From Phycisphaerales bacterium (lineage in GTDB: Bacteria > Planctomycetota > Phycisphaerae > Phycisphaerales > UBA1924), in assembly GCA_029260555.1 (NCBI GenBank), contig JAJDCZ010000052.1, positions 95,199 through 159,198 on the forward strand: a stretch of 64,000 nt of DNA, in the 5' to 3' direction. Below the pieces are notes generated by a model. It worked only from the letters and a program-made list of their open reading frames with translations, did no database searches and had not been told where the DNA came from. The position numbers and the translations under genes were made by a program. Positions 20,008 to 59,236 of the stretch are shown one piece after another. Each line of letters begins with the position of its first letter. Positions within the stretch are counted from its first letter, which is position 1.

Positions 20008-23000
20008 ATGCCCAGCCAACTACCCAAAAAGTACATCCCCGAAGATCACGAAGCCCGCATCCGCCAGCAATGGGATGATGCTCAAGCCTTCCACGCTGAT
20101 CCCTCCCGCGTGCTCTCGGGTGAAAAACCGCCCTACTGCATCCTCATACCGCCTCCCAATGTCACCGCTGCCCTGCACCTGGGTCATGCTCTGAATAACA
20201 CGCTCCAGGATGTACTCATTCGCTCCCACCGCATGATGGGCTACGAAACCCTCTGGATGCCAGGCACCGACCACGCAGGCATCGCCACCCAGACCGTCGT
20301 AGACAAACGCCTCCAGGCTGAAGGCAAGCCCGCACTGGCAGACTACAAACGCATCGAAGTAAAAGACAGCACAGGCCGCGACCAGTTCATCGCCATCGTC
20401 CAGTCCTGGAAAGACGAATACGAACAACAAATCACCGATCAACTCATCGCGATGGGTTGTTCATGCGACTTTGCCCGTCAGCGCTTCACCATGGACCCCC
20501 TCTGTGCCCGGGCTGTCCGCCAAGCCTTCTTCCAGCTCTTCAAAGCCGACCTGATCTATCGTGGCAAACGCCTTGTCAACTGGGACCCCGCCACCCAGAC
20601 TGCCCTCTCAGATGATGAAGTCGAAAATGTTGAAATCCAAGGCCACTTCTACTACCTCCGCTACCCACTCGTCCACAAACCCACCAACCCCGATGATCCC
20701 TTTGACACCGCTCCCGTCACCTGGGATGAACTGGCCACCAGAGGCTACCCCGGCGCCGCTTCCCATGCCCCCAACGAACCCGCATGGGTCACCGTCGCTA
20801 CCACGCGCCCCGAAACCTACCTCGGCGACACCGCTGTCGCGATCAACCCAACAGATCATCGCGCCAAACCTCTCAAAAGTCTCTTTGTTCAGCTGCCACT
20901 CGTGGGTCGTGTCATTCCCATCATCGAAGATTCCTATGTCGTGCTCCCTGATCCCGATTCCAGCGACACCAAAGCAAAGTTCGCCACAGGCTTCCTCAAA
21001 GTCACTCCCGCCCACGACCCCAACGACTGGGAACTGGGCCAACGACACAACCTCCCCATCATCAACATCATGGCTCCCGATGCCTCCATCTCCGCAGACC
21101 ATGGCTGGAATGATTACTCCCCCCACAACGGTGCCCATGTCTTCATTGGTAAATCCCGCGAAGAAGCCCGCAAACTCGTCATCCGCGAGTTCGAAGCACG
21201 CCAGGTCGGGCCAGATTCTTCTGAAACCCTCCTCGAAGACATCCAGCCCCACACCCACAGCGTCGGCCACTCCTACCGCAGCCATGTCGCCATCGAACCC
21301 TACCTCAGCGATCAGTGGTATGTCAAAGTTACCGACGACCGACTCAAAGGCACCGCCCAACGCGCCCTCAACCTTGATCAGCGAACACAAGCCTCACTCA
21401 ACCAATGGCCAGAATCACACCCAAACAATCCATCTCTTAACGAGCCGCGACCGTCAGGGAGCGGTCTTCATTCCACCAACAAACCTCAACCTTCAGAAAA
21501 CCAACCCCTATCTCTTAACGAGCCGCGACCGTCAGGGAGCAGTCTTCATTCCACCAACGAACCTTCATCGTCAGAAACCGGTCCCCGAATCTCCTACCTC
21601 ATCACCTTCACTACCTATGGAACATGGTTACATGGAAACACCAAAGGCTCCGCAGACCGAAACCACAATCTGCCCGGCACCCCATACCTCCCACCAGACA
21701 CTGCACAAGAACTCAAAGAAGAACAAACGCTCAAGCACGACCCCGTTGAACTCGACCAGGTCCATCGAAGCACCGTTGCTGATGCGATCCGCGAAGTCTG
21801 CGAGCATCGCAACTGGGAACTGCACGCCTGTAATGTTCGTTCAAATCATGTCCATGTCGTGGTGAGTGCTGACGCGACACCCGAGCGCGTGATGAACGAT
21901 CTCAAGTCCTACGCAACACGGGCAATGCGTAACTTGAGCCAGCCCATCACAGCAGAACATGTCTGGACCCGCCACGGCTCAACGCGATACCTCAACACAC
22001 CCAACGCATTCAATCACGCAATCAAGTACACACTCGAAGAACAAGGTGAAGACCTTGGCGGTGTCATCCGAGGCACAACAGAAGTTTCAAGACCGCTCCC
22101 TCACGGTCGCGGCTCGTTCAGAGAAGACTCTCTCAACGATAGCTCCCTCTCGTTCCACCCCCCCCGTTATGCCAAAACCTACGAATCATGGCACGACAAC
22201 CTCCAGAACTGGTGCATCAGTAGGCAACTCTGGTGGGGACACAGAATCCCTGTATGGGCTCTTGATAACGAAAACCACAATCATCATCCGGATGTTGAAG
22301 CAGAACTAAGAACAGAAGATTGGGAGCAAACAAAATTCGCCCACTGGGAGAAACAAAATCGCATCAGCATACATCGAAGAGGTAACGCTGGCGGTGTCGA
22401 TCGCAATAAATTATTTAGTGGAATTGGTTTCAAACACCATCTGTTTATTTGTGTTCGAGATATCAATGATTCAGAGATCATAGATTTCATTGAGCAAAAC
22501 AACACCTTCGTCAGAGACCCCGATGTCCTCGACACCTGGTTCTCCTCCGCCCTCTGGCCTCTAAGTACACTTGGTTGGCCCGATGTTGATTCTGCAGCAA
22601 AAATCACCGGGCTTGACGACTTCCCCCAGATGCTCAAAGCCTTCAACCCCTCTACTGTCCTTTGCACAGCTCGTGAGATCATCACGCTCTGGGTTTCTCG
22701 CATGGTCATGTTCAACCGGTTCTTCCTGGGTGAGCAAGAAAGTACACATCCCACAGAACGAGCCGCGACCGTGAGGGAGCGGTCTTCCTCTTCCACGAAT
22801 CAATCGACAGAACTCCAAGGCCCCGCCCCATTCCGCGATGTCTTCATCCACGCCATGATCCAGGATGGTCAAGGCCGAAAGATGTCCAAATCCCTCGGCA
22901 ACGGCGTAGACCCGCGCGACATCATCCACTCCCATGGCACCGACGCCATGCGCTACACACTCTGCCAGATGACCACCCAAACCCAGGATGTCCGCCTGCC

Positions 23001-23994
23001 CGTCTCCACCGACCCGGAATCCGGCAAAAACACCAGCCCCAAGTTCGACATCGGCAGAAACTTCTGCAACAAACTCTGGAACGCTGCCCGCTTCACACTC
23101 AGCATCCTCACCAACGAAAACAACACCAGCGAAAAAGCTGCTGACCAAACAGCCCTTATAGATCAATGGATGGCTTCTCGCGTTCGCCGTACATCCCAGC
23201 GTGTGCGCGATCATCTCAGCGCCTACAACTTCAACCAGATTTCCGAAGAGCTGTACGACCTGCTCTGGCGCGATTTCTGCGACTGGTACCTCGAAGGCAT
23301 CAAATCAACCGTCAGTTCCAACCCTAACCAGCGCGCAATGCTCCGCACCGTGCTCGAAACCATCATCCGACTGCTCCACCCCATCTGCCCCTTCATCACC
23401 GAAGCCATCCATGAACAACTCCGCCAGATCCCCGTTGAAGATGTGCCCGGCTTCACACTTGGCTCTTCTAATCTGCTGGCAACCGCCCCCTGGCCCGAAC
23501 TTGCAGATACATTAGACAACCCCCAGGCAGAATCAGCCTTCATCCGACTCCAGGAACTGGTCACAGCCATACGCGAAGTCCGCGCACAACATCAGGTTCC
23601 TCCCAAGCGCAAAATATCACTGCATGTTTCCAGCGTCAGTGCCCAGGAAATCCAGGCTGCTGATCCCGTTGCCCAACTGCTCGCTGGTCTTGATCAGGTC
23701 ACCACCGAGTCCCCCCCTTCAGATGCAGTAGCCTTCGTGTTTGATTCCGCTCAACTCCACTTGAGCAATCTCGCTGATCAGATCGATGCCAACGCAGAGC
23801 GTCAAAGGCTCGACAGCAAGATCCAGGATCTTGATCAATCCATCAGTGCATTAGAAGCCCGCCTTGCCAATCCGGGTTATTCTCAGCGCGCCCCTGCTCA
23901 TCTTGTCGAACAAACCCGTGAACAACTCGCCCGTGCCCAGGCCGATCGCAAAACCGCTGTAACAACCCTCGAATCCCTCGAGACCCCAGCGTGA
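20008..23994 (+). CDS. valS: Valyl-tRNA synthetase carrying an in-frame RAYT/REP insertion
   Basis: Charges tRNA-Val. One open frame of 1328 codons, against roughly 880-950 for ordinary ValRS. An AGGTG precedes the ATG. HLGH (57-60), the CP1 editing domain with TTRPETYLGD, WCISRQLWWGHRIP (735-748), DVLDTWFSS, KMSKS (958-962) and the C-terminal coiled-coil arm are all present. Between K440 and W735 the usual ~36 residues are replaced by ~294. About residues 456-712 hold translated REP repeats, a complete RAYT transposase domain (about 526-686) and a reverse REP. A second, ~30-residue REP-derived insert (about 909-938) precedes KMSKS, and the stretch from 748 to DVLDTWF is also about 50 residues longer than usual. 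All core motifs are intact, so the enzyme may still work with the inserts looped out. Confidence 0.95.
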   Translation: MPSQLPKKYIPEDHEARIRQQWDDAQAFHADPSRVLSGEKPPYCILIPPPNVTAALHLGHALNNTLQDVLIRSHRMMGYETLWMPGTDHAGIATQTVVDKRLQAEGKPALADYKRIEVKDSTGRDQFIAIVQSWKDEYEQQITDQLIAMGCSCDFARQRFTMDPLCARAVRQAFFQLFKADLIYRGKRLVNWDPATQTALSDDEVENVEIQGHFYYLRYPLVHKPTNPDDPFDTAPVTWDELATRGYPGAASHAPNEPAWVTVATTRPETYLGDTAVAINPTDHRAKPLKSLFVQLPLVGRVIPIIEDSYVVLPDPDSSDTKAKFATGFLKVTPAHDPNDWELGQRHNLPIINIMAPDASISADHGWNDYSPHNGAHVFIGKSREEARKLVIREFEARQVGPDSSETLLEDIQPHTHSVGHSYRSHVAIEPYLSDQWYVKVTDDRLKGTAQRALNLDQRTQASLNQWPESHPNNPSLNEPRPSGSGLHSTNKPQPSENQPLSLNEPRPSGSSLHSTNEPSSSETGPRISYLITFTTYGTWLHGNTKGSADRNHNLPGTPYLPPDTAQELKEEQTLKHDPVELDQVHRSTVADAIREVCEHRNWELHACNVRSNHVHVVVSADATPERVMNDLKSYATRAMRNLSQPITAEHVWTRHGSTRYLNTPNAFNHAIKYTLEEQGEDLGGVIRGTTEVSRPLPHGRGSFREDSLNDSSLSFHPPRYAKTYESWHDNLQNWCISRQLWWGHRIPVWALDNENHNHHPDVEAELRTEDWEQTKFAHWEKQNRISIHRRGNAGGVDRNKLFSGIGFKHHLFICVRDINDSEIIDFIEQNNTFVRDPDVLDTWFSSALWPLSTLGWPDVDSAAKITGLDDFPQMLKAFNPSTVLCTAREIITLWVSRMVMFNRFFLGEQESTHPTERAATVRERSSSSTNQSTELQGPAPFRDVFIHAMIQDGQGRKMSKSLGNGVDPRDIIHSHGTDAMRYTLCQMTTQTQDVRLPVSTDPESGKNTSPKFDIGRNFCNKLWNAARFTLSILTNENNTSEKAADQTALIDQWMASRVRRTSQRVRDHLSAYNFNQISEELYDLLWRDFCDWYLEGIKSTVSSNPNQRAMLRTVLETIIRLLHPICPFITEAIHEQLRQIPVEDVPGFTLGSSNLLATAPWPELADTLDNPQAESAFIRLQELVTAIREVRAQHQVPPKRKISLHVSSVSAQEIQAADPVAQLLAGLDQVTTESPPSDAVAFVFDSAQLHLSNLADQIDANAERQRLDSKIQDLDQSISALEARLANPGYSQRAPAHLVEQTREQLARAQADRKTAVTTLESLETPA
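21432..21480 (+). repeat. REP copy A (forward, in valS)
   Basis: A 49-base unit with hairpin GACCG / CGGTC around an eight-base loop. It repeats 78 bases later as copy B with one mismatch. It is translated as NEPRPSGSGLHSTN (478-491). Confidence 0.85.
21510..21558 (+). repeat. REP copy B (forward, in valS)
   Basis: Same 49-base unit as copy A, offset by exactly 78 bases (26 codons), differing at 21541 (A for G). The similarity continues weakly into the following ~25 bases, which suggests a tandem duplication of a 78-base unit. Translated in the same frame as copy A. Confidence 0.85.
22091..22118 (-). repeat. REP copy C (reverse, right side of RAYT)
   Basis: Reads GACCGCTCCCTCACGGTCGC then GGCTCGTT on the + strand, the reverse complement of the forward copies. 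It closes the RAYT domain and is translated as SRPLPHGRGSF in the valS frame. Confidence 0.85.
22757..22786 (+). repeat. REP copy D (forward, second site in valS)
   Basis: A forward copy with the GTGAGG loop version, translated as ERAATVRERSS (917-927). This is a different frame from copies A and B. It sits between the ValRS stretch MVMFNRFFLG and PFRDVFIHAM, shortly before KMSKS. Confidence 0.85.
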
Positions 23995-59178: not shown

Positions 59179-59236
59179 AGACCACTCCCTTACGGTCGCG
59201 GCTCGTAAAGACCCTGGTTTACGGTCGCGGCTTGTT
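59179..59236 (-). repeat. Two tandem REP copies (intergenic)
   Basis: Two reverse-oriented copies, 59179-59206 and 59209-59236, each ending in ACGGTCGCGGCTCGT or ACGGTCGCGGCTTGT. Both match the 3' part of the valS REP copy C, with more divergence in the 5' half. They lie between the permease and the 59291 gene. Confidence 0.8.

Follow-up and report, generated by a model that had tools for sequence, protein, structure and literature searches.

A complete unit, consisting of a transposase between inverted REP hairpins, lies in frame within a loop of valS, the gene for valyl-tRNA synthetase (ValRS), in the 64 000-nt stretch of a Phycisphaerales genome analysed here (the window). To judge from the sequence, the transposase is likely to be made solely as an internal domain of the synthetase, and it is likely still to cut single-stranded REP hairpins. 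The kept catalytic residues, the absence of a start of its own, the unbroken frame, the inverted REP flanks, the dozens of relatives in which at least two dissimilar types of transposase fill this loop, and the occurrence of the window's type in AlaRS and a DUF1156 methylase as well together point to a guest that is read through by its host gene. That such a complete unit stands in frame in an essential gene had been put forward in the original prediction, made from the letters of the window, and it is confirmed here.

The features of the locus are listed in Table 1. The valS frame is uninterrupted, as originally claimed, and its product matches the Pfam families tRNA-synt_1, Anticodon_1 and Val_tRNA-synt_C, with Y1_Tnp inside. 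It also scores above the cut-offs of two NCBIfam valS equivalogs (924.6 bits against 704, and 772.4 against 612.1), as is expected of a full-length ValRS. The polypeptide, guest included, is estimated from its length at roughly 147 kDa. A second intact valS was sought as a possible objection; a single valS was found in the genome, which is 92.9 % complete and so leaves a little room for another. Residues D435, Q436, W437 and Y438 of the left host anchor are invariant in an alignment of 44 sequences. The borders first assigned to the insert (21376-22143) were too narrow, the stretch of the window ValRS that is unmatched in an insert-free relative running from about residue 460 to 709.

Table 1. 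Features of the valS locus, in window positions; residue numbers are those of the valS product
Feature	Position	Strand	Basis
valS, valyl-tRNA synthetase with embedded transposase	20008..23994	+	single open frame, 1328 codons/aa
Host anchor on the left side of the variable loop, DQWYV (residues 435-439)	21310..21324	+	sequence comparison
Left linker, residues 474-524, predicted disordered	21427..21579	+	pLDDT under 50
Left REP copy 1, read in frame as EPRPSGSGL	21440..21468 (core 21445)	+	pattern match
Left REP copy 2, read in frame as EPRPSGSSL	21518..21546 (core 21523)	+	pattern match
HUH transposase domain (Y1) of TnpA_Y1 class 3 type, residues 529-683	21592..22056	+	Pfam, alignment, fold match 4er8
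HUH motif H614-V-H616	21847..21855	+	alignment
Predicted catalytic tyrosine Y674 in Y----Q motif	22027..22029	+	alignment; motif as in PMC6006769
Right linker, residues 691-709, predicted disordered	22078..22134	+	pLDDT under 50
Right REP, inverted, in-frame reading RPLPHGRGS	22089..22117 (core 22091)	-	pattern match
Host anchor on the right side of the loop, WCISRQLWW (residues 735-743)	22210..22236	+	sequence comparison
Fourth REP, elsewhere in ValRS without transposase, in frame as ERAATVRERS	22758..22786 (core 22763)	+	pattern match

Within the guest, the Pfam Y1_Tnp match covers residues 586-655 (37.1 bits, cut-off 23), and the motifs NHVH, WTRHGS and YTLEEQ are present. Conservation was assessed in 61 distinct ValRS domains of the window's kind (type 1), after removal of 11 duplicates, counted over every host, and of two matches that were weak or short, and in 139 stand-alone rows, mostly the best 120 of 2096. 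The first HUH histidine is kept in 60 of the 61 ValRS domains (Q replaces it in P0093) and the second in all of them, as are the W and the Y of the other two motifs; the N of NHVH is kept in 46. The original prediction was right to name H614-V-H616 as the HUH motif, but its catalytic tyrosine, Y635, is probably wrong and was rejected, since tryptophan occupies that position in 113 of the 139 stand-alone rows. Y674, which lies 60 residues past the HUH motif, is by contrast kept throughout, in 61/61 ValRS, 22/22 AlaRS site-A, 11/11 methylase and 139/139 stand-alone rows, and the Q of the Y----Q motif is nearly invariant (17 rows); the alignments thus favour Y674 over Y635 as the predicted catalytic residue. 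The position of Y635 is itself tyrosine in nearly all embedded copies, and stand-alone copies with this REP nearby are mostly of the tyrosine type.

The guest had been named a RAYT. It is indeed a Y1 HUH transposase accompanied by REPs, but it does not fit the canonical RAYT, as its 26.5-30.1 bits fall below the cut-off of 80 of the NCBIfam RAYT model NF047646; the type-2 guest of L139, described below, exceeds it with 87.9. By its motifs, the window guest appears better placed in TnpA_Y1 class 3. In an AlphaFold model of residues 1-1200 of the window ValRS (mean pLDDT 77, pTM 0.65), whose best PDB match is 1gax, a ValRS, the guest core (residues 581-690) has block means of 76-94, residues 541-561 are weak and the linkers fall under 50. 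The guest modelled alone has a mean pLDDT of 83. Its best PDB match is 4er8, a REP-bound RAYT (E 4.3e-5, with a modest TM of 0.47-0.49), and it also matches IS200/IS605 transposases, i.e. it is predicted to have the HUH fold of a Y1 transposase. Guest and synthetase are therefore both predicted to fold, and the models agree with the earlier proposal that the insert is looped out from the enzyme. It had also been suggested that the transposase may depend on ValRS translation. An ATG-coded methionine (GTG and TTG starts being left out of the count) stands within 15 residues upstream of the domain in 1 of the 61 ValRS copies versus 104 of the 139 stand-alone rows, a difference which suggests that the embedded transposase is probably made only together with ValRS.

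The REP core was searched with the pattern CCGCGACCGTNAGGGAGCGGTC; as a single strand, the REP reads ACGAGCCGCGACCGTNAGGGAGCGGTCTT. The two forward copies to the left of the guest and the reverse copy to its right had been described correctly. Two more copies lie on the minus strand of the window, at 59180 and 61964. No match to the core was obtained in 100 shuffles of the window. At up to three mismatches, 100 copies were found in the window's own genome and none of the reversed pattern. In 35 aligned copies ACGAG is conserved before the core, which is not literally the CnGA foot of class 3 hairpins. Only 7 of 28 own-genome REPs examined lie in frames of at least 400 codons, versus 56 % of 300 random window sites; REPs of this genome thus mostly avoid long frames, and a REP without a transposase is only exceptionally read through. 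The own genome has two Y1_Tnp matches, the window guest included; the other gene (C33) is a weak candidate for the mover of these REPs, as no REP was found in the 2743 bases around it.

Thirty embedded type-1 units were inspected for flanking REPs, namely that of the window and 29 units in 28 of 80 loci (80 having been kept out of 193). At up to five mismatches, all but one of them have the guest between a forward REP to its left and an inverted REP to its right, L189 being without the right copy, and one shuffle of each flank pair gave no REP hits. The same arrangement was seen in 11 of the 52 stand-alone copies considered from these 80 loci, one further copy (in L167) having been passed over. 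In L161 and L162 a REP is read in frame within the embedded transposase, about 361 nt from the start of the domain. Across 400 genomes of the window's order, at least five REPs (up to two mismatches) were found in 16 of the 17 genomes that carry type 1 in ValRS (median 29) versus 36 of the 383 others, a contrast that is partly circular, since the pattern was derived from the window valS, the units bring copies of their own and related genomes are not independent. The 36 comprise 24 of 117 genomes with the transposase elsewhere and 12 of 266 without a match. One genome, G077, has only two REP copies, and both flank its guest. Three genomes without a type-1 match are REP-rich (G131, G137 and G172, with 94, 50 and 41 copies), and the latter two hold other guests in ValRS.

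A type-1 relative was found in 134 of the 400 genomes when these were searched with the transposase piece. The 14 highest-ranking hits, one of them from the own genome, fall in frames of 988-1529 aa; three further ValRS cases (G047, G044, G043) ranked among stand-alone copies. A long frame by itself was rejected as proof of fusion, because stop-to-stop frames here are often long by chance; L112-L115, although in long frames, show a methionine shortly upstream and were taken as stand-alone. Among 21 non-own hits listed in frames of at least 620 aa, 20 were read, the one left out being G064, which has a stop inside. Sixteen of the 20 are stop-free ValRS frames that carry the guest in the same position, two of them being truncated by a contig end, and four look stand-alone. 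Type 1 occupies the ValRS loop in at least 17 of the 400 genomes, own included. Among the matches listed for 294 genomes across the phylum, type 1 in ValRS was seen only in the own genome and in G044, both of this order. Outside the order, a type-1 transposase was observed in a 1614-aa frame (G676:C1:7397668-7398159).

A search of 5.8 billion proteins, in which lengths of 730-2324 aa were eligible and long hosts were thereby favoured, returned 98 long homologues, a number that counts the window's own; 51 are ValRS, 31 AlaRS, 11 DUF1156 methylase and 5 others. The named records of these loci are from Phycisphaerales and other Planctomycetota, with a few other labels. When mapped to insert-free references, the ValRS sites fall at about 435 to 472, mostly 455-472, with P0064 as the exception. 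Those in AlaRS fall near 280-330, mostly 292-301, and five lie near 411-413 (P0098 seen from one side only); both AlaRS sites are filled in P0002 and P0003. The AlaRS of L176 holds two transposase guests that are 61 % identical to each other.

The same ValRS loop holds a different transposase (type 2) in further genomes. No BLASTP alignment was obtained between type 1 of the window and type 2 of L139 (best E 0.31). A type-2 guest with its adjoining piece of ValRS, used as query in the 400 genomes, gave a single continuous match in 27 genomes and two adjacent ones in 3; G007 was added by direct reading, and four more were recognised on reading. A guest other than type 1 is present in the ValRS loop of at least 35 other genomes among the 400, 16 loops having been read and 19 assigned by match span; one of the 16, that of G137, holds a further, divergent type of guest. 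Of the other long-frame hits to this query, 18 were read and comprise 7 LeuRS, 6 Ham1, 4 ValRS and 1 Hsp70, Pfam having been run on two of the LeuRS, three of the Ham1 and the Hsp70. A VFTTRPDT-type motif follows the guest in 6 of the 7 LeuRS. Type-2-like guests were seen in frame in LeuRS just ahead of that motif (L254-L260), in Ham1/RdgB (L261-L265 and L271) and in Hsp70 (L269). Inverted repeats flank the guest in all five such units examined.

Phylogenetic comparison of guests and hosts indicates that the guest, which had been viewed as a single case, is recurrent, partly inherited and partly exchanged. On the transposase tree the 61 ValRS rows need 5 changes, 2 of them forced, and are thus nearly one lineage, with a few stand-alone and other-host rows interspersed. 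They are scattered, by contrast, over the host ValRS tree, which has 118 rows and on which type 1 (60 rows) needs 27 changes, 25 of them forced, and type 2 (14 rows) needs 14. Guest and host distances correlate at 0.42, where 2000 shuffles give at most 0.18, and 16 of 58 host-tree splits recur in the guest tree; the correlation and the shared splits argue for inheritance in part and exchange in part. Exchange is evident in the pairs P0004/P0014 (hosts 92 % identical, guests 64 %) and L111/P0093 (79 and 48 %), and likewise in P0007/L139, where type 1 faces type 2, and L240/L239, where type 2 faces the further type, the hosts being 87 % identical in both of these cases. Within genus g68, type 1 is found in two genomes, type 2 in three, the further type in one and none of these in two. 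The two AlaRS guests of P0003 are sisters (97/81 support), and the guest at the odd ValRS site of P0064 is placed, with modest support, among AlaRS guests, the pattern that movement between sites and genes would leave. Such mobility is inferred from the trees, and homologous exchange of valS segments would yield the same swaps.

A course of events consistent with these observations can be proposed. The guest would enter as single-stranded DNA, or through recombination with another occupied valS, and only in-frame entries into tolerant loops would survive. Once embedded, it would be expressed whenever the host enzyme is, and its deletion would be hard without damage to the host. It would then persist under purifying selection, to which a dN/dS of about 0.1-0.25 among ValRS-embedded guests points, maintain the REP population of the genome, and be replaced or lost through loop exchange, which would account for its patchy distribution. 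Essentiality of the host cannot be the whole answer: it is not known to apply to the DUF1156 methylase.

Alternatively, the guest may be a domesticated domain that is kept because the synthetase, or the host, now makes use of it, for instance as an appendix that binds nucleic acids. Such a role would suit its conserved catalytic residues and low dN/dS (about 0.10 for L161/L162, i.e. 0.20/1.94; 0.19 for L159/L160, i.e. 0.21/1.12; and about 0.25 for the window guest and L162, with dS above 1 in all three informative pairs), as well as its partial co-inheritance with the host. In several close pairs the guest is as conserved as the host enzyme (guest/host identities of 98/92, 96/84 and 93/87 %), but in L097/P0010 it changes faster (84/94 %). 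The loop is, however, empty in close relatives (L138 against L097, hosts 86 % identical; L253 against L111, 87 %), dissimilar transposases replace one another in it, and the guests occupy several host genes, which argues against one enzyme-specific function. Domestication is accordingly considered unlikely.

Less probable still is that the units strike anywhere, that the loop is merely tolerant and that the embedded copies are inactive relics. The loop does vary in length without any transposase, the anchors being 54-135 residues apart in the empty ValRS loops read, and at least one of these (L253) contains, by eye, a REP-like peptide. Relics would be expected to decay, though, whereas the catalytic motifs are kept in 60-61 of 61 copies, dN/dS is low and the carriers are rich in REPs.

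Inteins with homing endonucleases reside in essential genes at recurrent sites, are patchily distributed and exchanged, and carry a nuclease-like guest. The insert shares that habitat, and the original prediction had called it intein-like. That comparison is misleading where removal from protein or RNA is concerned, which we regard as very improbable: no splicing family is among the six Pfam families matched, and the copies read are free of stops and remain in frame, although an insert taken out of the RNA would have no need to be. The guest, unlike an intein, would thus stay in the protein. Finally, the named records come almost entirely from metagenome assemblies, but an assembly or annotation artefact can be dismissed with near certainty, since about 40 kb separate valS from its contig end, neither the frame breaks nor the assembly join that had been raised as possible flaws fits a design repeated in 16 other genomes of the order, and the independent records include single-contig genomes with type 1 (G068) and type 2 (G093) and other carriers on contigs of 3.7-4.8 Mb.

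The read-through guest may be compared with systems already described. The closest published description of the enzyme is class 3 of TnpA_Y1 (PMC6006769), which has NHVH, W[TA] and Y----Q motifs, occurs in Planctomycetes and is accompanied by high-copy hairpin repeats. The REP flanks of 29 of 30 units and the 100 own-genome copies agree with it. The enzymes of that class have a median length of 178 aa and are stand-alone genes, whereas those considered here lie inside host enzymes without a start or stop of their own, that of the window being internal to the 1328 codons of valS. In that paper a few proteins that were longer than expected were set aside by the authors, who took them for fusions or erroneous annotations. 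REPtrons, or REP-associated tyrosine transposases (PMC3733652, PMC8049555, PMC8266576), likewise combine a transposase between inverted REPs with dispersed REPs, but their transposases are genes of their own, and none inside a host enzyme is described in the accessible parts of these sources. Palindromic repeats that read through core genes are represented by the Rickettsia RPE and a REP-decorated uvrA (PMC3733652); those are short repeats, whereas here the read-through takes in a unit together with its transposase. Among the papers listed in searches of a literature collection outside which most subscription papers lie, none deals with a transposase residing in an aminoacyl-tRNA synthetase.

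It is tentatively proposed, with less confidence than is placed in the reading of the valS unit itself, that these guests are mobile elements of a new class, which may be called read-through transposons. Its members would be HUH transposases without promoter, start or stop of their own, existing as translated internal domains of essential enzymes (ValRS, AlaRS, LeuRS, Ham1, Hsp70 and others), catalytically active on dispersed REPs, homing between host genes into tolerant loops that are used repeatedly, and competing with one another for the same loops. The function of REP transposases and the long-term upkeep of REPs in genomes are described as unknown or unclear in PMC8049555. Residence in essential enzymes offers a testable partial answer, in that expression would be guaranteed and deletion would be harmful unless exact. 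The data also suggest that a loop of an aminoacyl-tRNA synthetase can accommodate a folded guest of about 155 residues, and that this has come about repeatedly, in three synthetases or more; guests so tolerated bear on protein evolution, on the annotation of overlong proteins and on the choice of insertion sites in synthetases. Jumping genes, it seems likely, have made essential proteins their home.
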